Below are positions 1-12,643 of a DNA stretch of 16,521 nucleotides, one piece after another; position 1 is the stretch's first letter; each line of letters begins with the position of its first letter. Position numbers and translations under genes: made by a program. The notes under the pieces were generated by a model. That model was not told the origin of the DNA and searched no databases. It saw only the letters and a list, made by a program, of their open reading frames with translations. This DNA comes from Streptomyces sp. MUM 178J (GTDB lineage: Bacteria > Actinomycetota > Actinomycetes > Streptomycetales > Streptomycetaceae), in contig NZ_JADWYQ010000078.1 in assembly GCF_022414575.1 (NCBI RefSeq), positions 1 to 16,521 of the forward strand, written 5' to 3'.

Positions 1-1084
1 CCGTCGGATGCCGCTCTGACTTCGCTACCTGCGATTTCTCGCCCATCTGATGCAATTCCCGAGGGTTGGTGTAGATGTTCAGCGTCATGGCCGCGTTGGT
101 GTGGCCGAGACGCTCGGAGACCGTCTTCACGGACTCGCCGTGCTTGATCAGCAGACTGGCGTAGTGGTGCCGGAGGGCGTGGGGTCCGGTGCCCTTCGGC
201 ATGCCGGCCTTCGCGCAGGCGGGCCGCCAGGACCCGTCCATGAAGTGCGTGTAGACCACGGGTCCGCCTTGTGGCGCCGTGAAGATCCAGCCTTCGGGCC
301 CATCGGCGGGGAAGTCCCGCAGGTGGGCCTTCATCGCATCCACCGCCATGCGGGGGAGCGGGACCGTGCGGTGCGAGCGAGCGGTCTTGGGCGGGCAGAC
401 GTACACGCCGTGCTTGGCGGTCTGCTGGATCTGCTGCTCGACCGAGACGGTCGCGTGCAGCAGGTCCACGTGCCGGAGCTGGAGGCCGAAGAGCTCGCCG
501 GGGCGGAGCCCGGTGGCCGCGCCGAGCAGCACGAGGCCCTTGTACCGGGCGGGCATCTCCTCGGCTAGCGTCCGTACCTGCTCGACGGCCAGCGGTACGA
601 CCTTCTTCCGGGGTACCGAGGGCAGCTTCGCCTCGGCGCAAGGGTTGTGGGGGATCATCCGGTCACGGACGGCCGCCCGGAAGACGGCGTTGACCGTGTT
701 GAAGACCGTCCGTGAGGTGCTGGCGGCCAGCCCGTGCGTGGTGGTCAGGCTGGTGACCCAGCTCTGTACGTCGCCGGGCTTGATGGCGCCGAGTGACCGC
801 TTCTCCCAGGCTGGGTAGACGTAGCAGCGCAGGTGCTGGGCCACCGCCTTGGCCGTGGAAGGCCGGTGCGGCTGGATGGCCCGCCACTCCTCCGCGTACT
901 CCTTGAAGGGCTTCTTCGCCGATCGCGGGTCGACGTACTGACCGGTGACCAGGCTGGCCGTGACCTCGTCGATCCACCGCTGGGCGTCGATCTTGCGGTC
1001 GAAGTGGCGGGCGTGCTCCTTGCCGTCGAGGTCGCGGTAGCGGGCCCGCCATTTGCCGTTGGGGCGCTTCTGGATGTTGGCCAA
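1..1084 (-). CDS. int: Tyrosine recombinase/integrase, C-terminal end cut by window edge
   Basis: Site-specific recombinase that would integrate and excise the element. I translated 361 codons from a TTG at 1084-1082, preceded by AAGGAG with a 7-nt gap. The frame is open to the window edge, so the extreme C-terminus is missing. An Arm/SAM-like N-terminal DNA-binding region (about 1-150, starting with the AP2-like segment KWRARYRDLDGKEH) precedes the catalytic domain. The catalytic set is visible: R194 (ATGLRPGE), H302-x-x-R305 (HALRHH), H328 (RLGHTN) and the nucleophile Y338 (NIYTN). Actinomycete integrases of this type are usually about 370-420 aa, so little is lost. It lies 24 nt downstream of the XRE regulator gene on the same strand and is probably co-transcribed with it. 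Its 3' end faces outward, so the att site should lie just left of the window. The fold assignment is firm; the target site is unknown. Confidence 0.95.
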   Translation of the reverse strand, partial: MANIQKRPNGKWRARYRDLDGKEHARHFDRKIDAQRWIDEVTASLVTGQYVDPRSAKKPFKEYAEEWRAIQPHRPSTAKAVAQHLRCYVYPAWEKRSLGAIKPGDVQSWVTSLTTTHGLAASTSRTVFNTVNAVFRAAVRDRMIPHNPCAEAKLPSVPRKKVVPLAVEQVRTLAEEMPARYKGLVLLGAATGLRPGELFGLQLRHVDLLHATVSVEQQIQQTAKHGVYVCPPKTARSHRTVPLPRMAVDAMKAHLRDFPADGPEGWIFTAPQGGPVVYTHFMDGSWRPACAKAGMPKGTGPHALRHHYASLLIKHGESVKTVSERLGHTNAAMTLNIYTNPRELHQMGEKSQVAKSERHPT

Positions 1085-1108: not shown

Positions 1109-1609
1109 TCAGTAGTGGCCTCCGTCCTCGATGTCGCCGCTGAGCGTGCGAGCGTCCCGCTCGTCGCCCATGAGGCGGAGGCACTGCTCGTGGATGGCCC
1201 GCGAGCTGTCCGGGTGGGCCTTGATGTGGTCGGCGATGGCGACCACGGCGTGGTGTAGGCGGTCGCGCGCGTCGCGGGCCTCGTAGAACGCCTCGACGGC
1301 TTCTTGGACGAGGCGCCGACTGTCGATGTCGAGCCCCTCCAGGGGCGGGGACATCAGCTCTTCGAGAGGGAGCTCGAAGACGCGGGAGAAGGCGAGGGCC
1401 TCGTCGAGGTTGATGCGCCGGCGGGGGGTGCCGTTCTCGATGCGCCAGACCGCTGTCTGGTTCATCTTCACGCCGGCTCTCGTGACCCGGTCAGCCAACT
1501 CGGTCGTGCTCCACCCTCTGACCTCGCGCTCCAGGGCCACACGCGCGGCCACGTTCCCCTCGCTGTAGAGCAGCGGCACCTCGCCGCCCTCGGGCCTGTC
1601 GCCTGCCAT
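1109..1609 (-). CDS. XRE-family helix-turn-helix regulator
   Basis: A 166-aa protein with an HTH_3/XRE-type domain at about residues 19-85: GNVAARVALEREVRGWS, TTELADRVTRAGVKMN, and the recognition-helix region QTAVWRIENGTP. A helical C-terminal tail contains EAVEAFYEARDARDRLHHA. An upstream ATG at 1747 is in frame, but I chose ATG 1609 because GGAGG lies 4 nt before it and the domain begins soon after. The longer start would also run through the divergent promoter region. The gene precedes the integrase by 24 nt on the same strand and is divergent from the excisionase-like gene, the position of a repressor controlling excision and replication. The palindrome at 1654-1669 is a candidate operator. 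The repressor role is inferred from position; the HTH call is direct. Confidence 0.85.
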   Translation of the reverse strand: MAGDRPEGGEVPLLYSEGNVAARVALEREVRGWSTTELADRVTRAGVKMNQTAVWRIENGTPRRRINLDEALAFSRVFELPLEELMSPPLEGLDIDSRRLVQEAVEAFYEARDARDRLHHAVVAIADHIKAHPDSSRAIHEQCLRLMGDERDARTLSGDIEDGGHY

Positions 1610-1730: not shown

Positions 1731-1925
1731 ATGCGATACCTGACCACCTCCGAGGTAGCCGAGCGCTACCGCACAGCCGAGAGCACCGTCCGCTACTGGC
1801 GCCACATCGGAAAGGGGCCGCGCGGCATCAAGGTCGGCAAGCGGGTGCTCTACCCCGAGGCCGAGCTGCTGCGCTACGAGCGCACCCTGATCGACGGCCA
1901 GGAGGAATGGGGCCTGGCCTCGTGA
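1731..1925 (+). CDS. xis: Excisionase-like MerR-type HTH protein
   Basis: A 64-aa basic protein beginning MRYLTTSEVAERYRTAESTV, then WRHIGKGPRGIKVGKRVLY and PEAELLRYERTL. This is the standard small excisionase/DNA-binding layout: HTH helices, then a wing with the K-V-G-(K)-R-V-x-Y pattern. Such proteins bend DNA at att sites and turn integrase towards excision, and some also regulate transcription. I chose ATG 1731 because the domain starts there; the ribosome site is weak (GGGAATG). An in-frame ATG at 1641 would add 30 residues unlike the family. The gene is divergent from the regulator-integrase operon and 148 nt upstream of rep, probably the first gene of the rightward transcript. The fold is clear; the excisionase role is inferred from size and position. 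Confidence 0.85.
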   Translation: MRYLTTSEVAERYRTAESTVRYWRHIGKGPRGIKVGKRVLYPEAELLRYERTLIDGQEEWGLAS

Positions 1926-2073: not shown

Positions 2074-3696
2074 ATGGAGGACTCTACGTCCCCCGCCACC
2101 TCGAACGCATCCGAGGTTGTCTGGCCCGCCGCCGCGGTCCCCGGCCAGGGCATTCCCTGGCGCGACGGGGACCGAGGCGGGGACCGAACAGAGTCACGGT
2201 CCCCTGCTGCACACGCCAGCGGCGATGCTTCGACGGGTGTTCCGGTCGGGGACCGAAACACCCCCATCGCGGCACCTGTGCAGGTCAGTGCCCTGGGGAC
2301 CGGTCCCGCCGGAGCGGAAGCCGGGGACCGGGCGGAGTCTTTCGGCCCGCTGGTCCCCGAACCCGGTCCCCGAATCCCGGACGAGCGCGGTGCGCCCCGA
2401 ACCGATGGTGAGGGCCACGGTCCCCACGAATCTGCGGGGACCGTGGTCCCCGACGGCGGATCGGGGACCGGGGACCGCGCTGGTGCGAGCGACGAGACGG
2501 CCGGCGAAGGAGCCGCGCTGCTGGATGACCTCCGTGCGGCGATCGGTCGGTACGTGGTGCTGCCGAGCGACGAGGCTCTGACGGCGGTCACGTTGTGGGT
2601 GGCTGCCTCCCATATCCAGCCCGCTCTCCAGCACGCGCCACGGCTGGCGGTGGTGGGGCCGACCAAGGGCTGTGGCAAGTCCCGGGTCCTGGACGTGCTC
2701 CACGAGACCGTGCACCAGCCGATGATGACGGTGAACACGTCGCCTGCGGTGGTGTTCCGCGTCATCGGCAAGAACCCGCCGACGCTGCTGGTGGACGAGG
2801 CCGACACCATTTTCGGCCCCAAGGCCGGCGACAAGGAGGACCTGCGCGGTCTGCTGAATGCCGGGCACCAGCGCAACCGGCCCGCCTGGCGAATATCCGG
2901 CCCGGAGCACAAGCCGACGGCGTTTCCCACCTTCGCCATGGCCGCGCTCGCCGGGATCGGCGACCTGCCGGACACGATCATGGACCGGGCGGTCGTGCTC
3001 CGCATGCAGAAGCGCAAGCCGGGCGAGCGCATCGCCCCGTTCCGCTCGCGGTACTCCGTTCCGGAACTGAACGCGCTGCGCAACCGGCTGGCCGCATGGC
3101 TGGCCCCGCTGCGCGGGGCAGCAGAGCGGCTGGTGCCACCGATGCCGGTCGAGGACCGGGCCGCCGACACGTGGGAGCCGCTGGTGATCGTCGCCGACCT
3201 GGCTGGCGGACACTGGCCCTCGCGGGCCCGTGCCGCCTGCCTGGCGATGACGCGCAACGAGGTGGTCCAGGACGAGCAGACGACGCTGAAGACGCGGCTG
3301 CTGCGCGACGTCCGGCGCGTGTTCGAGCAGGAGGGCCACAAGGAGGCTCTGCGCAGCCAGGACCTGCTCGCCGCCCTCCTCCAGGACGCCGAGGCGCCCT
3401 GGTCCGAGTACGGGACCAAGGGCCTGAACGCCTACCACCTGGCCAACCTGCTGCGCGACTTCGGCATCAGCCCGGCCAACCACCGCTTCGAGAACGGCAG
3501 GCAGGCGAAGGCGTACGCCCGTAACCAGTTCCTCGACGCCTGGGCCCGCTACTGCCCCGACCCTGCCCAACCGGCACCCGCAGTAGAGGAGACCGTGCCC
3601 GCACGTCGAGCCCAGGGCAAGCCACCGGCCCCTCCGTCGGGGGCGATGCCCATCGGCCCGCCCGGCGGGCCTGCCGGCCCCAGGCCCACTCGCTGA
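2074..3696 (+). CDS. DUF3631 AAA+ ATPase, probable replication initiator
   Basis: A 540-aa protein. Residues 1-140 are low-complexity and probably disordered (Gly, Pro, Asp, Arg rich). A helix (DDLRAAIGRYVVLPSDEAL, about 151-170) leads into an ATPase core with Walker A GPTKGCGKS (195-203), Walker B TLLVDEAD (237-244) and a sensor-like DRAVVLR (304-310). The C-terminal DUF3631-type region (about 360-495) includes WEPLVIVADLAGGHW and ends in a winged-helix-like part (YGTKGLNAYHLANLL, YARNQFLDAW). Such proteins occur on actinomycete plasmids and integrative elements as replication proteins. ATG 2074 is preceded by GAGAGGAA with suitable spacing. The DNA for residues 21-135 carries the iteron-like array, so origin and initiator may be one unit, as with the lambda O gene. 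The ATPase is certain; initiator function is inferred from context. Confidence 0.85.
   Translation: MEDSTSPATSNASEVVWPAAAVPGQGIPWRDGDRGGDRTESRSPAAHASGDASTGVPVGDRNTPIAAPVQVSALGTGPAGAEAGDRAESFGPLVPEPGPRIPDERGAPRTDGEGHGPHESAGTVVPDGGSGTGDRAGASDETAGEGAALLDDLRAAIGRYVVLPSDEALTAVTLWVAASHIQPALQHAPRLAVVGPTKGCGKSRVLDVLHETVHQPMMTVNTSPAVVFRVIGKNPPTLLVDEADTIFGPKAGDKEDLRGLLNAGHQRNRPAWRISGPEHKPTAFPTFAMAALAGIGDLPDTIMDRAVVLRMQKRKPGERIAPFRSRYSVPELNALRNRLAAWLAPLRGAAERLVPPMPVEDRAADTWEPLVIVADLAGGHWPSRARAACLAMTRNEVVQDEQTTLKTRLLRDVRRVFEQEGHKEALRSQDLLAALLQDAEAPWSEYGTKGLNAYHLANLLRDFGISPANHRFENGRQAKAYARNQFLDAWARYCPDPAQPAPAVEETVPARRAQGKPPAPPSGAMPIGPPGGPAGPRPTR
2136..2476 (+). repeat. Iteron-like array, 14 copies of GGGGACC/GGTCCCC inside rep
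   Basis: The heptamer GGGGACC occurs forward at 2167, 2179, 2248, 2295, 2323, 2436, 2463 and 2470, and inverted at 2136, 2198, 2352, 2365, 2419 and 2445. The common extension is CGGGGACCGA. Some copies are tandem with 12-13 bp period (2167/2179; 2352/2365). Others form dyads: GGGACCGGTCCC (2296-2307) and an 11-bp perfect inverted repeat (2415-2425 with 2436-2446). The copies encode different peptides by orientation and frame (GDR, GTV, VPE, VPG), so the repeat is kept at DNA level. It is a candidate replication origin or Rep-binding region; function is inferred. Confidence 0.7.
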
Positions 3697-3704
3697 CACC
3701 AGCT

Positions 3705-3835
3705 CCGTATCAATCCGTCGCATCCGTCCCCGCGCAGGTCAGCGCGGGGACGGAGTTTCTCGCCGATACGGATCACTCCGTACCTGCGACCGTTTCCGTA
3801 CCTGCCTTGACCTGCTACGGGACGGATGCAACGGA
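3705..3835 (+). other. Candidate origin of transfer (oriT) upstream of mobC
   Basis: This gap holds nested repeats beyond one terminator. A 17-nt imperfect inverted repeat (16/17 match) joins 3714-3730 and 3819-3835, with core GCATCCGTCCC/GGGACGGATGC. CCGTATC (3705-3711) mirrors GATACGG (3765-3771). TCCGTACCTGC is directly repeated at 3777-3787 and 3795-3805. CCGTA (3796-3800) mirrors TACGG (3816-3820). Inverted repeats directly upstream of mobC-relaxase genes are typical of oriT; the nic site was not identified. Confidence 0.5.
3723..3754 (+). terminator. Strong hairpin after rep
   Basis: A perfect 13-bp stem, TCCGTCCCCGCGC (3723-3735) with GCGCGGGGACGGA (3742-3754), and a 6-nt loop. It starts 26 nt after the rep stop codon and is followed by GTTTCTC. 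It could terminate the rep transcript. It also lies inside the repeat-rich block ahead of mobC, so it may be part of a transfer origin instead. Confidence 0.6.
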
Positions 3836-3876: not shown

Positions 3877-4587
3877 ATGCCCGAAACGAGCACCGATAAC
3901 GCCCCCACCCGCCGCCGCAAGGGATTCTTCGGCCTGACCCGCCGATCAGCAGCAAGCTGGAGCGAGCGAGCCTCTAACGAGGCTTCGTCCGCGCTTGCCC
4001 CCGCCCCAGGGGTGGCGGAGGGGAAGGCCGAGCGCCAAGGGGCGCCCGAGCCGGAGGAGGGTGTAGCCGAGACCAGCTGCCCGCCCGCCGCCGACTCCAT
4101 CGCCCCACGCACTCAGCCGCTGGCCGATGTCCAACCGCCCGCCGAGCAGCCCTCCTGGCGGGATCCCGACGCCCCCGTCCTGCCCGCGCTGATGAACCGC
4201 AAGCGCACCGTGGAGAAGCGCGACCAGGAGAAGACCATCCGCTTCACGCGGACCGCGGTGAGCGTGATCAGCGCCGCCGCTCACCAGCGCGGTCAGAAGT
4301 TCGCCGGATTCGTCGGGGACGCCGCCCTCGCCGTCGCCTTGGGCAAGGCGGGGCTGGTCGGCAGCCCGGAGGACGACCCGGTCCGCCCGCTGATCGAGGC
4401 CGTCGAGGCACACACGGTCGCGCTGAACCGCATCGGCGGCAACCTCAACCAGATCACCGCGGCCATCCACCGAGGCACCGTGTCCGAGCACGCCGAGGCC
4501 GTGCTGGACCACGTCGAGCAAACCGCCGAGAACAGCTACCGACTGATCGACCAGCTCCTGACGGAAGGCACCGCCCATGGTTCCTGA
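3877..4587 (+). CDS. mobC: MobC-like relaxosome accessory protein
   Basis: A 236-aa protein. The first 100 residues are low-complexity (Pro, Ala, Glu rich). Residues about 115-155 (EKRDQEKTIRFTRTAVSVI and on) look like a ribbon-helix-helix DNA-binding unit. The MobC signature LNRIGGNLNQITAAIHRG spans 183-200. MobC proteins bind oriT and help melt it so that the relaxase can nick. The start ATG 3877 is preceded by GGAG 7-8 nt away. The stop codon lies inside the relaxase gene (11-bp overlap), so the two are translationally coupled. The long N-terminal extension is unusual beside compact plasmid MobC proteins of about 100-150 aa. Family assignment is good; oriT binding is inferred and the candidate site lies directly upstream. 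Confidence 0.85.
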   Translation: MPETSTDNAPTRRRKGFFGLTRRSAASWSERASNEASSALAPAPGVAEGKAERQGAPEPEEGVAETSCPPAADSIAPRTQPLADVQPPAEQPSWRDPDAPVLPALMNRKRTVEKRDQEKTIRFTRTAVSVISAAAHQRGQKFAGFVGDAALAVALGKAGLVGSPEDDPVRPLIEAVEAHTVALNRIGGNLNQITAAIHRGTVSEHAEAVLDHVEQTAENSYRLIDQLLTEGTAHGS

Positions 4588-6274
4588 CGTCTCCACCGGC
4601 TCCAACACCCGCGGACTGATCGCCTACCTCTTCGGCCCCGGCCGCCGCGACGAACACACCAACCCTCACATCGTCGCCGCCTGGGACATGGCCGGCGCCC
4701 CCGACCCCGGCCGCGACCCGGCAGCCACCTACTCCCAGCTCGCCAAGCGCCTCGACCACCACGTCGACCTGCGCACCCGCGAACTGGGCGGCAAGAAACC
4801 ACCCCAGCACGTCTGGCACTGCCCGGTCCGCACCGCGCCCGGCGACCGCTACCTCACCGACACCGAGTGGGCCGAGGCCGCCCGCCGCATCGTTCACGCC
4901 ACCGGCATCGCCCCCGAAGGCGACGAGAAGGCATGCCGGTGGATCGCGGTGCGTCACGCCGCCGACCACATCCACATCATGGCCACCACCGTCCGTGCCG
5001 ACGGACGCCGCCCCCGCACCCACCGCGACGGACAGCGGGCCCAAGCCGAGTGCCGCAAGATCGAGGCCGAGTTCGGCCTGCGCCGCCTGAAGTCCGGCGA
5101 CCTCACCGCGCCCCGCACCCCCACCGGCGCCGAACGCGCCAAGGCCGAACGCCAGGGCCAGACGGTCACGGCACGGCAGTGGCTGCGTGAGCAGGCATAC
5201 GCGGTCGCCGCCGCCGTACGAACGGAAGCCGACTACTTCACCGTGCTGCAGTCCCTCGGCATCAAGGTCAAGACACGCCTCGGCCCCGAGACCGGCGACG
5301 TGATCGGCTACAGCCTCGCCGCACCAGGCGACACCAACGCGGCCGGCGAACCCGTCTGGTACGGCGGCTCGAAACTCGCCCCCGACCTCTCCATCAACCG
5401 CCTACGCGAACGCCTCCCCGACCAGAAGGTGGCCGACCGCCCCCGGTACGTGGCGGACCCCGCCGACCCATGGCGGCACACCACCACCGCCATACACACC
5501 GCACGCACCGTCCTCGACTCCGGTGACGATGCCGCCGCCCAGGGCCACCTCGCCGCCTTCGGCGACGCCCTGTACAACATCGCAAGCGCCACGACCGGCC
5601 CACACCGGGCGGAACTACGAGCAGCGGCGACGGCGTTCAACCGCGCCCGCCGCTCCGCCACCCGCGCCGACCACCAGACCGCCACCGCCCTGCGCAAGGC
5701 CGCCAAGGAACTCGCCTACGCCTCCAACGAGCCGGGCGGACTCGCCATCGCCCTGCTCTTCGCCACCCTGCACCTGGCCCGCGCCGCCGCCAAGTGGCAC
5801 GAACAACGCGGCCACGAACAGCAGGCCGCAGCGGCCCAGGAAGCCCTCCGCCACCTCCATGCGGGCTACCAACAGGCCGCCGCACCCGTCCTGGCGGACC
5901 TGACCCGCCGCGCACCACGAGCCGCAACCACCCGCCGCTACGAACAGGACGTTCGCGCGACCCTCCCCGACCACGCCGACCGAATCCTCGCCGACCCCAC
6001 TTGGACCGCCCTGACCACCACCCTCGCCCACGCCGAAACCGCCGGCCACAACCCCCGACGCCTCCTGACCGAGGCCGGCACCCTGCGGGAACTCGACAGC
6101 GCCGAACACCCCGCCGAGGTCCTCAACTGGCGCATCACCACTCAGCCGAACCGGCGGACGCAAGCCGCTCGAAGCCGAAGCACCACCAGCGGCACATCGG
6201 CCATGTCCGCCGCGCCACATCCTCCGGCCACACCAGTGGCTACGAGGCCCGAAGATCGCAGTCGGCACCGCTGA
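4577..6274 (+). CDS. Relaxase/mobilization nuclease
   Basis: A 565-aa DNA-strand transferase that would nick oriT and pilot the transferred strand. The N-terminus (GSNTRGLIAYLFGPG) has Y17 as a candidate nucleophile. The metal-binding region is HVWHCPVR (H81) plus RHAADHIHIMATTVR, with D130, H131 and H133 in the three-histidine arrangement of MOB_P-like relaxases (Pfam Relaxase). A second conserved block, SLGIKVKTRLGPETGDVIGY and WYGGSKLAPDLSINRLRERL, spans about 227-280. The remainder is Ala/Arg-rich helix, probably coiled or DNA-associated. The start overlaps the mobC end by 11 bp. The length is normal for actinomycete relaxases. No coupling ATPase or secretion genes follow, so transfer would need a helper. 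A hairpin terminator follows within 10 nt. Confidence 0.92.
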   Translation: MVPDVSTGSNTRGLIAYLFGPGRRDEHTNPHIVAAWDMAGAPDPGRDPAATYSQLAKRLDHHVDLRTRELGGKKPPQHVWHCPVRTAPGDRYLTDTEWAEAARRIVHATGIAPEGDEKACRWIAVRHAADHIHIMATTVRADGRRPRTHRDGQRAQAECRKIEAEFGLRRLKSGDLTAPRTPTGAERAKAERQGQTVTARQWLREQAYAVAAAVRTEADYFTVLQSLGIKVKTRLGPETGDVIGYSLAAPGDTNAAGEPVWYGGSKLAPDLSINRLRERLPDQKVADRPRYVADPADPWRHTTTAIHTARTVLDSGDDAAAQGHLAAFGDALYNIASATTGPHRAELRAAATAFNRARRSATRADHQTATALRKAAKELAYASNEPGGLAIALLFATLHLARAAAKWHEQRGHEQQAAAAQEALRHLHAGYQQAAAPVLADLTRRAPRAATTRRYEQDVRATLPDHADRILADPTWTALTTTLAHAETAGHNPRRLLTEAGTLRELDSAEHPAEVLNWRITTQPNRRTQAARSRSTTSGTSAMSAAPHPPATPVATRPEDRSRHR

Positions 6275-7520: not shown

Positions 7521-8066
7521 TCAGGCGGCGCGGGCTGCGGGTAATTGGGAGACCCACGTCGTGAGCTCGGTCAGGTGCCCGGGCTGCAGCCCGTGGTGTG
7601 GGTCGGGCTGAACGAGAAGAGTCGGCGTTCCCTTGGCATTGCGCTCCGCCGCCCAGGCGTGGTCGAGGCAGGTGAAGTCGTCGTCGATCCAGACGGCAGG
7701 TGCGTCTGCCAGCCAGTGGTCAACGTGGTCGCGCTTCCAGAGGTAGCCGTTGGGGTGGCTGGTGGTGATCTGGGGGCGCGGCAGGTCGATGTACGGCAGC
7801 GTCGGGAGGCCCAGGAGGGGCCCGATGAGGGTGGTGGCGTCCTGGCGCCAGCTGGTGCACCAGACCGGGGTGACCAGGCCGGTGCGGATGACTTCCATGA
7901 GCAGGCGGCCGTGGTCGGGGTTGAGCCAGACGGTGACCGGGCTGTCGGCGCTCCGCCCGGTGGGGACGACGTCGTGGCGGGCGTGGGTGGCCGGGGTCGA
8001 GCCGTCCACGTTGGGGAAGGGTATGAGGACGCCGTCGATGTCGAGGAGCAGGTAGGGCGGGCGCAT
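7521..8066 (-). CDS. HAD-like phosphatase (HAD_SAK-type)
   Basis: A 181-aa HAD-superfamily hydrolase. Motif I is LLLDIDGVL, with nucleophile D9 and acid/base D11. Motif II is WCTSW (T71/S72), followed by the family-like [17 protein letters not shown]111 is a candidate motif III lysine, and motif IV is WIDDDF (D128-D130). The layout resembles the small HAD domain first noted in 'Swiss Army Knife' RNA-repair proteins and common as a stand-alone protein in Streptomyces. It should cleave a phosphate ester or nucleotide-type substrate that cannot be named from sequence. I chose ATG 8066 (GGAGGAA close upstream) over the 50-residue extension to 8216, which overlaps the methyltransferase gene. It is the last gene of the four-gene leftward operon, 35 nt after the methyltransferase. 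Confidence 0.85.
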
Positions 8067-8101
8067 CGGTTCCTCCGGGGGAAGCCGGGGCGAATAGCTG
8101 G

Positions 8102-8794
8102 TCAGAGCTTGCGGGCGCGAATCAGCAGGGTGGTGGGCCAGTGGCCCATGCGGGGGTCGTTGAACTCCTGGGCCGAAGTGAGCCAGAAGCCCGCCCGGCT
8201 GAGGTGCCTCTCCCAACGGTCGGTATCGAACTCCCAGCGAGCGATGGGTAGCCGGGTGCGGTCGGGCAAGGTGACGAAGTCGCGGCGGGGCCGATCGTCG
8301 CCGGAAGGGCTTCGACCGCCGCGCTGCGGGTGGGGGACAGAGAAGGCCAGCACTCGCCCGGGGATGAGGCGCTGGGCGATGGCCGGGAGCAGCAGCTCCG
8401 GAGCGACGAGACCGATGGCTCCGAAGACGGAGTAGATCGCGTCGAACTGCTCGTCAGAGGCGTGCAGGTAGTGCAGGGCGTGGCCGGCGACGAAGGTGAG
8501 GTTATTCAGCCGTCCGTAGTGGGAGCGAGCGCGGCGGACCTGAAGGCCGACCAAATCGACGCCGGTCACGTGAGCGCCGTGTCGGGTGGAGAGGTGAGCA
8601 GCGTTGTGGCCAGGGCCGCAACCGAGTTCCAGAAGTCGCTTGCCACGCAGGTCGGGGCCGAGAATCTCGGCTCCGGGCCCTTGGCCGGGCCTCGTGGTCC
8701 ATTCCATCCGTGCGGGTACGGCCAGAGGTTCGGCGAGTCCAACGGCGGTGCGCTGAACGGCGTGGGCGTGCCATGGGGATGCCTGGGCGAGCAC
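8102..8794 (-). CDS. Class I SAM-dependent methyltransferase
   Basis: A 230-aa protein with a Rossmann-fold methyltransferase core: motif I LLELGCGPG (54-62), the acidic end of beta-2 at D80 (VTGVDLV), and a post-motif region QFDAIYSVFGAIGLV (116-130). The C-terminal half includes LAFSVPHPQ and WERHLSRAGF. It resembles small-molecule methyltransferases rather than DNA methylases (no NPPY/DPPY), and it lacks the Hen1 RNA-methylase metal site. The start is GTG 8794, with GGAG 7 nt upstream, one base after the stop of the kinase-like gene, so the two are coupled. The reading frame continues upstream to 9400, but that stretch is the shadow of the kinase-like gene. The substrate is unknown. Confidence 0.9.
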   Translation of the reverse strand: MLAQASPWHAHAVQRTAVGLAEPLAVPARMEWTTRPGQGPGAEILGPDLRGKRLLELGCGPGHNAAHLSTRHGAHVTGVDLVGLQVRRARSHYGRLNNLTFVAGHALHYLHASDEQFDAIYSVFGAIGLVAPELLLPAIAQRLIPGRVLAFSVPHPQRGGRSPSGDDRPRRDFVTLPDRTRLPIARWEFDTDRWERHLSRAGFWLTSAQEFNDPRMGHWPTTLLIRARKL

Positions 8795-8795
8795 G

Positions 8796-9707
8796 TCAGA
8801 TCTCCAGGAGGTGGAGGACATCGGTGAGGTGGCGGCGGACGGCCTTGATGTAGGCGGGGTCGGTGGCCGGGTCGTTGATCCAGCGGATGGACTGCTCCAT
8901 GAACCACTCGACGGCCCACATGCGGTGCCAGCCCAGAGCCCAGTTCTCGGCGGCGAGCCCGCCGCGCCGGGCGAGGGCGTCGGGGGTGCCACCGGCAGTG
9001 ACGTACTGCTCCAGGAACACGCGCAGGCGCACGGGGTGCGGGGGCTCGATGGTGCCGTGCCAGCTGGCGAGGTCGAGCAGACCAGGGCCGGTGAAGGCGC
9101 GGGCGAAGTCGAGCAGCCGCCAGCCGCGCTCGCCGATGTGGAGGCTGGTGGGGTGGAACTCGGAGTGCACCCAGCCGAACGGTTCCAGCGTCGCTCCGGC
9201 CGAGCGGGCCTCGGCGGCCTTGGCGATACGGTCGAGCGCGTCCTCGACGTCGTCGGCGTCCTGCCACCGGTCGGCCTTGCGCAGCCGTTCGAGATGCTCC
9301 AGCGATTTGGTCGGCAGCGTGCGCAGCCGGTCCTGGTCGAGGACGCGCAAGGGTGGAGCCGTACGGGTGCCGTGCAGGACCACGGCCGCGGCGACGCCAT
9401 CGAGGTCGTCGGCCTCGCGGACTGACGGTCCGAGGTCCTCCATGAGCATGCCGAGCCAGCCGTCTAGGACGGCGGAGGCGTGGACCTGGGGGACGGGTAC
9501 GCCGAGGGTGTGGGCCAGGCGGAGGGCCTGGTACTCGCTGTCGAAGGGCTTCTTGGCGTACTTGAAGATGGCCGTGGAGCCGTCCGGGAAGATCACGCGC
9601 TCGACGCCGGACATGGACCACACGCGTACCTCCTCCCGTACGGCGGTGGTCCGGCCGGTCGCGGTGAGCAGGTTGTCGAGGAGTTCGGCGCTGGGGTTCG
9701 TGGTCAC
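8796..9707 (-). CDS. APH-fold kinase-like protein with altered catalytic loop
   Basis: A 303-aa protein of the aminoglycoside/choline phosphotransferase (APH) superfamily. The N-lobe has TAIFKYA with K49 as the likely ATP lysine and E58 (FDSEYQALRLA) as its partner. The linker region is LGMLMEDLG (85-93). The catalytic loop reads HSEFHPTS (181-188), where the family normally has H-x-D-x-x-x-x-N: the catalytic Asp is Glu183 and the metal-binding Asn is Ser188. The later metal Asp is kept at D200 (RLLDFARA). It may be a weak or specialised kinase, or a binding protein. There is no sign that it confers antibiotic resistance. The start is GTG 9707, with GGAG about 9 nt upstream. It is co-transcribed with the methyltransferase one base downstream. 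Confidence 0.85.
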   Translation of the reverse strand: MTTNPSAELLDNLLTATGRTTAVREEVRVWSMSGVERVIFPDGSTAIFKYAKKPFDSEYQALRLAHTLGVPVPQVHASAVLDGWLGMLMEDLGPSVREADDLDGVAAAVVLHGTRTAPPLRVLDQDRLRTLPTKSLEHLERLRKADRWQDADDVEDALDRIAKAAEARSAGATLEPFGWVHSEFHPTSLHIGERGWRLLDFARAFTGPGLLDLASWHGTIEPPHPVRLRVFLEQYVTAGGTPDALARRGGLAAENWALGWHRMWAVEWFMEQSIRWINDPATDPAYIKAVRRHLTDVLHLLEI

Positions 9708-9732
9708 GGGAGGGCTCCGGGGGATGGTGGCG

Positions 9733-9767
9733 TCCGGGGCGGGCGAGGGATGCCGGCCCGCCCCGGA
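9733..9767 (-). terminator. Intercistronic hairpin between the 249-aa gene and the kinase-like gene
   Basis: A perfect 12-bp GC stem, TCCGGGGCGGGC (9733-9744) with GCCCGCCCCGGA (9756-9767), and an 11-nt loop. It lies in the 75-nt gap within the leftward operon. There is no U-tract, so partial termination or transcript processing that lowers downstream expression is more likely than a full stop. Confidence 0.55.
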
Positions 9768-9782
9768 GCCTGATCGGGTGGG

Positions 9783-10532
9783 TTACGCGGCGGGGTTCAC
9801 GCGGCGGGCGTAGACCTGCTCGATCCAGCCCGCCTTGAACGCGGCGAGGTTGTCACGGAAGTTCGCCATCGAGGCACCGTAGGGCGCGACCACGCCGCCG
9901 GACTGGTCCGGCACGGACTGGCAGCCGTGCACGAGCCGGCCGCCCAGGGCGGCGTGGGCCTTGATGGACTCGATCCGGCGGTGCTCGTTGAACCAGCCGC
10001 CGTGGTAGACCTCGTCGAGCACCCCGCCCATCTCGTCGTCCAGGTCGAAGACGACGGACGTGGCGGCGGGGAAGAACCAGCACGGGCCGACGTTGGAGAT
10101 GCGCCCGTCCAGCTCGACCTTGTTGAGCGCCATGAGCGTGGCCGCCTCGCGGAGCATCCGCAGGTGCTCGGCGGTGATCTGCGGAAGTCCGAGGCCGGCC
10201 AGGTGCTCCTCGCGGAACAGGTACGCGTACACCTCGTACGCGGTGGCCACGACGCGGGCCGCGTCGGACGTGGACTCGCTGTGCTGCTTGATGAAGTCGA
10301 GCGCGAGCTGCTCGACCGCGCTCTCGGTCGTCTCGTCCACCTCCAGGAGCTGGGACTTGACCAGCTCCCAGTCGGCGACGAGCCAGGTGTTCGACTCGAA
10401 GCGGAAGAAGTACGCGGCCGGGTCGATCGTGATGCGCCGGCCGTCGACCTGGATGCCGGGCAGGCGGCTCCAGCGCGGGTCGAACGCCTCGGGCAGCTCG
10501 ACCGCGATGGCCGTGGTGTCGATGGTGGTCAC
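9783..10532 (-). CDS. Hypothetical protein, 249 aa, first gene of enzyme operon
   Basis: I do not recognise a family. The start is GTG 10532, with GGAG 5 nt upstream. Residues 15-60 look beta-rich (DPRWSRLPGIQVDGRRITID, then AAYFFRFESNTWLVADW). Residues 60-150 are helical (TTESAVEQLALDFIKQH, ARVVATAYEVYAYLFREEHL, TAEHLRMLREAATLMAL). The C-terminal part has GPCWFFPAATSVVFDLDDE, a Tyr/Trp/His-rich segment VYHGGWFNEHRR, and GGRLVHGCQSVPDQSGG. There is no signal peptide or membrane segment. It heads the operon with the kinase-like, methyltransferase and HAD genes and is divergent from the XRE regulator, so it is the likely direct target of regulation. It could be the enzyme or substrate-binding member that defines the pathway; this is inference from position only. 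Confidence 0.8.
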   Translation of the reverse strand: MTTIDTTAIAVELPEAFDPRWSRLPGIQVDGRRITIDPAAYFFRFESNTWLVADWELVKSQLLEVDETTESAVEQLALDFIKQHSESTSDAARVVATAYEVYAYLFREEHLAGLGLPQITAEHLRMLREAATLMALNKVELDGRISNVGPCWFFPAATSVVFDLDDEMGGVLDEVYHGGWFNEHRRIESIKAHAALGGRLVHGCQSVPDQSGGVVAPYGASMANFRDNLAAFKAGWIEQVYARRVNPAA

Positions 10533-10755
10533 CGTGTCTCCGTCTCTGATCGGCCGGGCTCAGGCACAGGAATGCCCGAGCCTGGTGTGGGCGTACGGAA
10601 CTTCGGGGTGCCGCCCGGACCAAGGAGGAGCCTGGATCACGGTCGCGCCGTTCCGGGCGGCTGCTGATAAGTGAACCGGTGGTCACGCTCAGTGGGTACG
10701 GTGGAAGGCAGTTGAAGCGGTATACGCGGTTTACAGCTCCGGAGTGGAGGCGATC
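10533..10755. promoter_or_regulatory. Divergent control region with inverted and tandem repeats
   Basis: This gap separates the 249-aa gene (-) from the XRE regulator (+). An imperfect dyad, GGCTCAGGCA (10557-10566) with TGCCCGAGCC (10573-10582), lies 24 nt upstream of the leftward start. A tandem 9-bp direct repeat, GCGGTATAC-GCGGTTTAC (10717-10734), lies just before the rightward ribosome site. Either could be an operator for the XRE protein. I see no convincing -35/-10 pair; TACGGT (10697-10702) is a possible -10. Confidence 0.4.
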
Positions 10756-12111
10756 GTGGCGGCGCAGAGAGAACCCAACTCCCGTCTGCGCGACGTCATC
10801 GCAGCGGTCGACTGCACCTACGAGGCCCTCGCCAGAGACGTGCGGCGCATCGCCGCCGAGAACGGCGAGATCCTCCAGACCAACAAGTCGGCCATCTCGC
10901 ACTGGGTGAACGGCACCCGTACCCCGTCCGGCCGAGTAGGCGAGTACCTGGCCGAGGCGCTGTCCCGCCGAGCGGGACGTACGGTCACCCGTACCGAGAT
11001 CGGCCTGCCTGTCGGTGATGCCGAGGAGCCGACGGAATCCGACCCCGTCCTCGCGGTCACCGACCTGGGCCGTGCCGACGTCGAGCGCCGCCGCTTCCTC
11101 GCCATCGCGGCCTTCACCACCGCCGGCGTCGCTATGCCGCTCGGTTACGACCACGAGGCCACCGCCCGCATGCTCCGCGCCCGCACCGGCACGTCCCTGG
11201 TCGGAGCGGAGGACGTGGACGTCGTACGCCAGATCACGGCGGCCTTCAGCGCCGCCGACGAGCGCCTCGGTGGCGGGCACGGACTGACCACTGTCACCGC
11301 GTACCTCGCCGACACAGCCGCTCCCATGCTGCGCGGACGTTTCCCCAGCGAAGCCTTACGCCGGGCCGCCTTCGGTGCCGTCGCCGAACTCGCCTACCTC
11401 GCTGGGTGGAAGCACCACGACCTCGGCCAGGAGGGCGCTGCCCAGCGCTACTACCAGGTTGGCTACAAGCTCGCCTGCGAAGCCGACCCGCACGGCCACG
11501 CAGCCTGGATGATGCGCGCCCTCGCCCACCAGGCCCTGAGCCTCAAGCAGCCCCACCACTGCGTCGACCTCGTCGAAGGCGCCCTCCGCACAGGTCTCGG
11601 CCACGTCGACGGCCAGACCGAGGCCCTCCTCCACATCACCCACGCCCGCGCCTACGCCGCCGCCGACGAGAGTCCCCTGGCAGCGTGCGCCCTGCTCGCC
11701 GCCGAAGACGCCCTCCTCCGAGACGACGGCCCCCAGCCCAGCTACTCCCGCGTCAGCGGCCCCGCCGCCGGCACCGTGGCCAGCCACACCGCCCGCACCC
11801 TGACCGACCTCGCCGACCACATCGGAACCGAGCAGCAGCACCGCGACGCCCTCACCCGCTGGGACCCCGACAAGTACAAGCGCGTCCACGCCCTTACCCA
11901 CGCCGACCTCGGCGACAGCCTCGCCGCCCAAGCCCGCGCCGACGAAGCCGTCGCCGCCTGGACTCAAGCCCTGGTCCTCATGGAGGGCATGACCTCCGAC
12001 CGCACCCGCAAGGCGATCACCTCGATCCGCTCCACCCTCGCGGTCTACCAGCGCCGCCGTGTCCCTGGCGCCGCCGATCTCGCCCGCCGCGCCCGCGAAG
12101 CCCTCGCCTAA
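10756..12111 (+). CDS. XRE-type regulator with long helical (TPR-like) C-terminal domain
   Basis: About 451 aa. The N-terminal HTH (about 8-75) includes LRDVIAAVDCTYEALARDVRR and NKSAISHWVNGTRTPSG. A basic-hydrophobic segment RRRFLAIAAFTTAGVAM (about 111-127) follows, a Tat-like patch often seen in Streptomyces regulators of this build. The rest is helical-repeat-like (EGAAQRYYQVGYKLACEAD, MRALAHQALSLKQPHHC, RADEAVAAWTQALVLMEGM), suggesting TPR-type ligand or partner binding. I chose GTG 10756 because GTGGAGG lies 5 nt before it; GTG 10744 would add 4 residues. Leu codon TTA occurs at 11356-11358, in frame, implying dependence on the bldA tRNA if the host is Streptomyces. It is divergent from the enzyme operon and followed by a Nudix gene, probably in one transcript. 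Confidence 0.85.
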   Translation: MAAQREPNSRLRDVIAAVDCTYEALARDVRRIAAENGEILQTNKSAISHWVNGTRTPSGRVGEYLAEALSRRAGRTVTRTEIGLPVGDAEEPTESDPVLAVTDLGRADVERRRFLAIAAFTTAGVAMPLGYDHEATARMLRARTGTSLVGAEDVDVVRQITAAFSAADERLGGGHGLTTVTAYLADTAAPMLRGRFPSEALRRAAFGAVAELAYLAGWKHHDLGQEGAAQRYYQVGYKLACEADPHGHAAWMMRALAHQALSLKQPHHCVDLVEGALRTGLGHVDGQTEALLHITHARAYAAADESPLAACALLAAEDALLRDDGPQPSYSRVSGPAAGTVASHTARTLTDLADHIGTEQQHRDALTRWDPDKYKRVHALTHADLGDSLAAQARADEAVAAWTQALVLMEGMTSDRTRKAITSIRSTLAVYQRRRVPGAADLARRAREALA

Positions 12112-12145
12112 CATGCCCAACAACCCGCCCGACGAAGGGAACACC

Positions 12146-12643
12146 GTGACCCAGCAGACCGACGACCAGCCGAAGGCCCTCACGCCGGCGCTCGAATCGA
12201 TGACCCTGCTGGTCGCCGCCGTCATCGTCCACGACAAGGCCACCAATCGCGTCGTCCTCCTCCAGCGCAGCGAGAACGCCAAGTTCGCCCAGGGCCTGTG
12301 GGACCTCCCCGTCGGTAAGAGCGAGCCGGGCGAACCCATCACCGAGACGGCCGTCCGCGAGCTCTACGAGGAGACTGGCCTCACGGTGAAGCCCGAGTCC
12401 CTCAAGGTCGCCCACATCATCCACGGTGCATGGGGCGTCGAAGCCCCCAACGGCTTCCTCACCGTCGTCTTCGCAGCCCACGAATGGACCGGCGAACCCG
12501 AGAACCGCGAACCCCGCAAACACTCCCAAGTCCGCTGGGTCGACACCAATGCCATCCCCGACGCCTTCGTTGACACCACGGCCAGCGCGCTGGAGAAATA
12601 TTTGTCAAGCGGCCAGGAGATTTCCTTGCAGGGGTGGGAGTGA
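12146..12643 (+). CDS. Nudix hydrolase
   Basis: A 165-aa protein with a perfect Nudix box, G57-x5-E63-x7-REL-x-EE-x-GL79 (GKSEPGEPITETAVRELYEETGL). These enzymes hydrolyse nucleoside diphosphates linked to another group and often remove damaged or regulatory nucleotides. The sequence before the box (LLVAAVIVHDKATNRVVLLQRSE, KFAQGLWDLPVGK) fits the fold. I chose GTG 12146 because GAAGGGA lies about 5-6 nt upstream; ATG 12113, one base after the regulator's stop, is possible but lacks a ribosome site. It follows the XRE regulator by 34 nt and is likely co-transcribed. Its last 15 codons are less GC-rich (AAATATTTGTCA), unlike its neighbours. The substrate cannot be named; the context suggests it serves the same unknown pathway. 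Confidence 0.92.
   Translation: MTQQTDDQPKALTPALESMTLLVAAVIVHDKATNRVVLLQRSENAKFAQGLWDLPVGKSEPGEPITETAVRELYEETGLTVKPESLKVAHIIHGAWGVEAPNGFLTVVFAAHEWTGEPENREPRKHSQVRWVDTNAIPDAFVDTTASALEKYLSSGQEISLQGWE

Follow-up and report, generated by a model that had tools for sequence, protein, structure and literature searches.

The 16,521-nucleotide contig NZ_JADWYQ010000078.1 of Streptomyces sp. MUM 178J (hereafter the window; one whole contig of a 6.63-Mb genome) carries an integrative, relaxase-bearing Streptomyces element whose rep gene, encoding a DUF3631 family protein, contains an array of 14 exact heptamers, eight GGGGACC and six GGTCCCC, at positions 2136..2476. Arrays of the same word are found upstream of homologous relaxase genes in elements with unrelated replication genes, and comparison of these loci indicates that the window array is one case of a wider class, namely word-specific arrays located upstream of Streptomyces mobilization genes. 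Given that arrays with lineage-varying words precede the transfer genes of differing elements, the array in rep is probably a protein docking site and not the origin of this rep.

An earlier note on this DNA had reported the 14 copies within 341 bp, had seen none elsewhere in the window and had proposed that selection acts on the DNA and not on the peptide; each of these points is borne out. A recount places all 14 occurrences of GGGGACC/GGTCCCC in the window within 2136–2476. The bare count is only mildly high, because dinucleotide shuffles of the whole window (mean 7.6 heptamers) reach 14 in 7 of 200 trials; it is the clustering that is extreme. At the genome-wide density (765 + 734 = 1,499 copies in 6.63 Mb), 0.077 heptamers are expected per 341 bp (Poisson P ~3e-27). 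The codon-matched shuffling that the note had suggested was performed on residues 1–145 of rep in three designs of 20,000 trials each, and 14 copies were reached in 0/20,000 trials of every design: the same peptide with the codon usage of the element gave a mean of 1.3 heptamers and a maximum of 7, permutation of its own synonymous codons gave 3.1 and 9, and shuffling of the codon order gave 0.6 and 5. Furthermore, the copies use all codon phases (7, 1 and 6 in phases 0, 1 and 2) and both strands. The window array is therefore under selection at the DNA level. The heptamer is preceded by C in 11 of the 14 copies and followed by G in 12, yielding the extended site C-GGGGACC-G, and variants with a single mismatch are nearly lacking (1 in 2101–2520 vs. 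82 in the whole window). Scans of the window with Rfam and for tRNAs gave no match.

The same pattern is seen in relatives of this gene. Loci encoding DUF3631 proteins were taken from a named genome collection (80 loci, 79 of them from Streptomyces) and from genomes of the same genus (30 loci, one of which is the window); these loci, like the relaxase loci discussed below, are related among themselves, so that the counts are not independent. The 101 loci that were anchored, among which the window is included twice (L001 and L083), comprise 67 with GGGGACC arrays, 14 with CCGGACC, one with GCGGACC, two with mixed arrays and 17 with none. The copy number exceeded all 400 synonymous permutations in 76 of the 78 array-bearing loci tested, with a mean of 11.1 copies per array-bearing locus vs. 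2.7 in the permutations and a heptamer density of 24.9 per kb inside the array vs. 0.17 outside, and the 952 copies together cover each of the six strand and codon-phase combinations. Over the array stretch, peptide identity to the window drops to 33–49% in GGGGACC loci that still hold 6–18 copies, so that the repeat persists at the DNA level as the peptide diverges. Helical phasing of the copies was considered as well, but the signal is weak and, given the relatedness of the loci, allows no interpretation.

The alignment of relatives proposed in the earlier note thus has a mixed outcome: most DUF3631 homologs keep the repeat while the peptide diverges, but one clade has no array. Among the 17 array-less loci, six are distant relatives (58–70% identity), and the clade in question consists of 11 rows nested among array-bearing rows in the tree, eight with a readable N-terminus, L065, in which the N-terminal frame appears disturbed, and two (L059 and L060) that are cut at contig starts and are array-less only by default. 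The gene order of this clade is unchanged where visible. The CCGGACC type requires three changes on the Rep tree, suggesting that arrays move between Rep cores. In two distant DUF3631 loci, L109 (1114–1520) and L111 (1139–1541), seven copies of GCCGTCCC lie around the start of the family match, perhaps another word of an N-terminal array.

Arrays upstream of relaxase genes in other elements

A pattern of three heptamer copies was detected in 64 of 246 genomes of the same genus, in many places that are not DUF3631 loci. In a class-wide sample, the pattern is present in 7/28 genomes of the genus vs. 13/268 others, the latter with one match each except for one genome with two matches far apart; given these few, single matches, arrays of the window word are mainly a feature of Streptomyces. 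Among the matches listed, 26 strong arrays outside DUF3631 loci were fetched with up to 17.5 kb of context each, whereas weak arrays of three to six copies (L117, L121, L122, L130, L135, L136 and L140) were left out; genes in these contexts were called by a simple script, which took antisense frames in places.

A homolog of the window relaxase is encoded at 24 of these 26 arrays; the other two are L160, which has a TrwC relaxase, and L171, which is truncated at a contig edge. The relaxase is the sole gene family common to the 26 contexts, and the array lies upstream, ~0.3–2.5 kb from the relaxase start. This arrangement recurs in different backbones, namely one with WhiB and DUF2637 genes, in which the array is inside the DUF2637 gene, one with a DnaC/IstB-like ATPase gene beside the array, and one with HTH_36 and zinc-finger genes, in which the array is located between genes. 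At L160/L292 (G012:C1 near 4754.3 kb), a GGGGACC array precedes the gene for a TrwC relaxase of 1448 aa; no type IV secretion system (T4SS) families were found in the ten genes scanned around L160.

Conversely, when the search starts from the relaxase, homologs (E <= 0.001) are present in 163 of the 246 sampled genomes of the genus. Sixty further relaxase contexts were chosen across the identity range, omitting places already seen with arrays; for an array to be called, the count of the top 7-mer had to be above the maximum from 30 first-order Markov sequences. Arrays were called in 32 of these 60 contexts, a fraction biased downward because places already seen with arrays were omitted. By relaxase identity to L149, arrays were called in 28/39 contexts at 65–100%, in 0/2 at 58–65% and in 4/19 at 45–58%.

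The words of these arrays vary. At related relaxases we find GGTCCCC, TGGTCCG, GGTCCGG, CTCGGTCC, TCGGTCCCGG, AGGACCG, CGGTCA, GGACAC and CGGGCAG, most of which fit CGGNCM in our summary of the sequences. Within an array the words resemble one another, and from lineage to lineage they drift. Copies lean to the strand of the relaxase gene, 437:218 for the window word and 120:21, 52:4, 44:0, 30:2, 37:12 and 8:3 for other words. The genome of the window itself contains two relaxase loci, the window and L223 (G000:C15:91430-97627), with two different words, that of L223 being CGGTCAG/CCGGTCA. Taken together, the sequences indicate that array words are swapped as cassettes between almost identical elements. 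At L164 (7540–8370), a GGGGACC array passes directly into an array of GCGGACCA, so that the word changes inside one stretch. The word GACCCGGA of plasmid pSVH1 resembles the CCGGACC type.

Several other repeats were noticed at these and neighboring loci. Two blocks recur some 0.4–0.8 kb upstream of the relaxase: of 85 loci, up to 44 contain parts of GCGACCGAGGGCGGATCGCAGC and 23 contain parts of CCGCCCCGGGGGTGGC. These blocks are a possible origin of transfer (oriT) and have no exact copy in the window. CGTGAAC repeats occur in nine copies at L113 (8711–8981), within the DUF2637 gene of an element of the TraB type, and in 13 copies at L252 (1–660). At L278 and L285 (~110–660), 13–15 copies of GCGCACC/CGCACCG are found near TrwC relaxase genes of other elements.

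Candidate readers and competing explanations

We tentatively favor the explanation that the array is a cis-acting array of the mobilization region that is read by a factor supplied in trans and functions as a mobilization or maintenance site. The heptamers would be protein-binding sites, threaded through the linker-coding DNA of rep because this DNA lies upstream of mobC and the relaxase gene. The reader, probably not the Rep, MobC or relaxase of the element itself, would come from the host or from a conjugative helper in the same cell. It would bind many copies together and draw the excised element into transfer or maintenance; Rep, in turn, would more likely start replication at another site, discussed below. 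We consider rather doubtful a broader proposal, namely that such arrays (~10–30 copies of 7–8 bp words of the CGGNCM type, polar to the mobilization genes and moved as cassettes) form a shared, variable address code read by helper or host machinery in trans. If so, an unrelated element that copied the word could obtain the transfer or maintenance service that goes with it. A factor binding such a word-specific cis array would be a lead to the machinery, of helper or host, that moves relaxase-only elements.

Candidate readers encoded in the element do not follow the word closely. The words require 21 changes on the relaxase tree and 23 on the mobC tree (from which eleven rows were dropped as outliers), compared to shuffled means of ~31, and 0/100 shuffles were as low; the phylogeny of either gene beats the shuffles, yet was rejected as an explanation of the words given the frequent switches. 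MobC/NikA is weakened as the reader by the observation that elements whose words differ can have identical putative ribbon-helix-helix (RHH) strands, and that elements sharing a word can differ in this strand. The two commonest word types of DUF3631 loci (A and B) were compared among close relatives. The best A/B-separating residue of the integrase, both small regulators, MobC or the relaxase reached an accuracy of 0.71–0.80 with baselines of 0.56–0.57, and the relaxase, the integrase and the two small regulators, none of which has a separating residue, were accordingly discarded as readers of the A/B difference. In Rep, A and B are separated only by residues next to the array, which is what a swapped cassette would give, whereas the rest of the protein, including a putative winged helix, has no matching change. 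Thus, the comparison suggests that the reader is either indifferent to these changes or not encoded by the genes for the integrase, the small regulators, MobC, the relaxase or Rep.

The known repeat readers of conjugative elements were considered too. In TraB loci, which served as a positive control for the method, GGTGTCA/CTGACAC is one of the three top-ranking words in 11 of 24 cases, often clustered in ~100 bp at one end of traB, although in some the count is not above shuffles; GGGGACC is the top word in 0/24. The identity of the array with TraB recognition sites was rejected, since TraB loci carry GGTGTCA/CTGACAC instead. In the genome of the window, the TraB query yielded two weak matches (best E 3.1e-9), the one place listed, on contig C25, lying outside the window; the element in the window is itself cut by the contig end. 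Near a TraB gene at L254 (690–945), a repeat that resembles clustered regularly interspaced short palindromic repeats and contains GGTCCCC proved a false lead in the array search. TrwC elements were rejected as helpers with matching arrays: a GGGGACC array is present at one of 30 TrwC loci, the L160 place.

Several points weigh against the trans-read mobilization array. No array was called in 28 of the 60 further relaxase contexts, in a sample that omits loci already seen with arrays. No protein is known to bind the word, and no helper with the same array was found, the TraB loci differing in word and TrwC loci having it in 1 of 30. The clustering of words on the relaxase and mobC trees would be compatible with an element-encoded reader of loose specificity. 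Finally, coding constraints may add to the strand bias because many arrays lie in genes on the relaxase strand.

The explanation advanced in the earlier note, that the array is an iteron origin of the DUF3631 Rep located inside the initiator gene, with the winged helix of Rep as the binding domain, appears unlikely. DUF3631 proteins are plausible replication proteins, but the comparison does not support the array as the origin of this Rep, and there are better readings than the origin-initiator unit of the note. The minimal replicon of pMEA300 and an origin of pSLA2 that lies within rep1 have reportedly been described. As expected of iterons, there are many exact, clustered copies in cis. However, the word is not specific to the Rep family and recurs beside unrelated replication genes; one DUF3631 clade has no array; no change in Rep outside the residues next to the array matches the word types, which are swapped as cassettes between near-identical Reps; and the array, with 70–78% G+C over most of its length, contains no AT-rich unwinding stretch, the lowest G+C nearby being at 1601–1750.

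Furthermore, a separate array, DUF3631-specific among the loci sampled, lies just 3' of rep. Between rep and mobC, at 3704..3835 (~130 bp), there are nine copies of TCCGT/ACGGA, with a hairpin of perfect 12-bp arms and a 6-nt loop at 3724..3753. At least six TCCGT/ACGGA copies per 150 bp are found in 78/80 DUF3631 loci vs. 4/86 other contexts, the 22-base core of the hairpin in 66/80 vs. 1/86, and the TCCGT copies are retained in the DUF3631 clade that has no heptamer array. This array with its hairpin is a candidate origin, likelier to be used by Rep than the heptamer array; a role as a transfer origin seems less likely because elements with homologous relaxases and other replicons lack the region. 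Thus, a repeat array inside a rep gene need not be an origin, and in this case a better candidate lies 3' of the gene. The genome of the window has a second DUF3631 gene (L002, contig C73), which carries repeats of CCGCTACC at its 3' end (1325–1471). CCGCTACC is also found at the 3' end of rep in plasmids L113 and L114, both with an annotated prim-pol gene nearby; the DUF3631 genes of all three loci are more distant and of the conjugative type known from actinomycete integrative and conjugative elements (AICE).

Quite unlikely, in our view, is a role in stability or as a kind of centromere, with cooperative binding like that at the Omega/ParB heptads of pSM19035. The array does consist of non-palindromic heptamers in both orientations, the pSM19035 parS has 7–10 consecutive 7-bp repeats of which mixed orientations work (PMC9499535), and in pIJ101 SpdA2 binds a palindrome in its own gene and affects stability (PMC4170104). 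However, the window copies are spaced and not contiguous, the RHH-like MobC does not follow the word, and no ParA-like gene was found among the genes scanned, a scan that covered only some of the genes.

It is even less probable that the array is unread and is a by-product of recombination and gene conversion that homogenize short words in variable coding DNA. Such a process would fit the uniformity of words within arrays and their drift between lineages, the change of word within the single array of L164, and the clade that has no array and otherwise no visible change. It fits poorly with arrays that precede relaxase modules in backbones unrelated to each other, also in intergenic DNA, and with exact copies accompanied by hardly any single-mismatch variants. 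Least probable is an array that works single-stranded, its complementary copies pairing into hairpins in mRNA or in the transferred DNA (a leading-region priming site would be one example): most GGTCCCC arrays have both orientations and mobC separates the array from the relaxase gene, but several arrays are one-directional (44:0, 52:4 and 30:2), so that complementary copies are not needed.

Genes of the element and known systems

The element starts with a tyrosine integrase gene (2..1084, minus strand; PF00589, E 1.4e-22), which runs off the contig end, followed by a gene at 1109..1609 (minus strand) with no Pfam match that is syntenic in many relatives and that we label regulator-like as our own reading, and by an excisionase-like HTH_17 gene at 1731..1925 (plus strand; PF12728, E 1.8e-10). 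The rep gene (2074..3696, plus strand) encodes a protein of 540 aa that matches PF12307 over residues 310–493 (E 8.9e-72) with 241.5 bits vs. a curated cut-off of 24, and accordingly belongs to the RepAM/DUF3631 family; the heptamer array sits in DNA coding for its N-terminal linker. Downstream, on the plus strand, are a MobC/NikA-like gene (3877..4587), named by its position and its alignment with NikA-like proteins of other elements and itself matching no Pfam or NCBIfam family, and the relaxase gene (4577..6274), with a MobA/VirD2-like nuclease domain (PF03432, E 6.9e-8). Thus, both an integrase and a relaxase are present; no T4SS families were found in the ten window proteins scanned, on a contig that is cut. 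From ~7.5 kb on, the genes at 7521–12643 are found again in many relatives, at a distance from the element that is not constant, which suggests that they probably belong to chromosomal DNA flanking a common integration site.

Two structure models of Rep, both spanning residues 141–540 only, look like an AAA+ helicase-initiator of the MCM/PriRep1 type. The order of secondary structure elements in the model suggests a putative DNA-binding winged helix at residues 405–493 (3286..3552, plus strand), where the predicted local distance difference test (pLDDT) score is mostly 79–91; the fold-search rows mainly cover model residues 1–264 and not this segment. The alpha protein of phage P4 and the Rep/PriRep1 proteins of staphylococcal pathogenicity islands (SaPI) combine an AAA+ helicase with a C-terminal winged helix and are initiators with iterons of their own. 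Compared by model, the window Rep resembles this class (PriRep1, 7pds), whereas sequence identity is ~10%.

Among the matches listed in the open-licence literature on Streptomyces plasmids and mobile elements, titles and abstract openings contained no description of such arrays. For RepAM/DUF3631 proteins of actinomycete integrative and conjugative elements (ICEs), rolling-circle initiation has been predicted in a paper that does not use the term iteron (PMC3218068); the autonomous replication of pMEA300 depends on its RepAM/DUF3631 protein (PMC3218068). The window rep is of the same Pfam family, whereas its model points instead to a helicase-initiator. Conjugation in Streptomyces is described as requiring a single plasmid protein, TraB (PMC4170104), and ICEs of the T4SS type are also reported in this genus (PMC9513070).

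The closest parallels share some properties of the array and differ in others. The TraB recognition sites (TRS) in the clt regions of Streptomyces plasmids are clustered 7–8 bp words near transfer genes, read by the translocase (PMC4170104, PMC3583192); however, the word at the sampled traB genes is GGTGTCA/CTGACAC, in line with the TGACACC repeat of the pWTY27 clt (PMC3583192), and the window element has a relaxase, with no TraB found in the window. In pIJ101, too, a mobile element of Streptomyces has a protein-binding site within coding DNA, the sps site in spdA2 (PMC4170104), but this site is a 12-bp palindrome in one to three copies that is read by the protein of its host gene. The parS of pSM19035 has non-palindromic 7-bp words in many copies and flexible orientation (PMC9499535), whereas its repeats are contiguous, lie at promoters and have a ParA partner; the copies in the window are spaced, and the only RHH-like candidate is MobC. 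The iteron of pWTY27, with five copies of GTGGGAAC and five of TTCCCAC in both orientations, is bound by RepA according to electrophoretic mobility shift assays and footprinting (PMC3583192). Like the window array, it consists of short words in both orientations near replication genes; unlike it, the pWTY27 iteron is located in adjacent non-coding DNA, involves a long inverted repeat that is bound, and is read by its own Rep, whereas the word of the window recurs beside unrelated replication genes.
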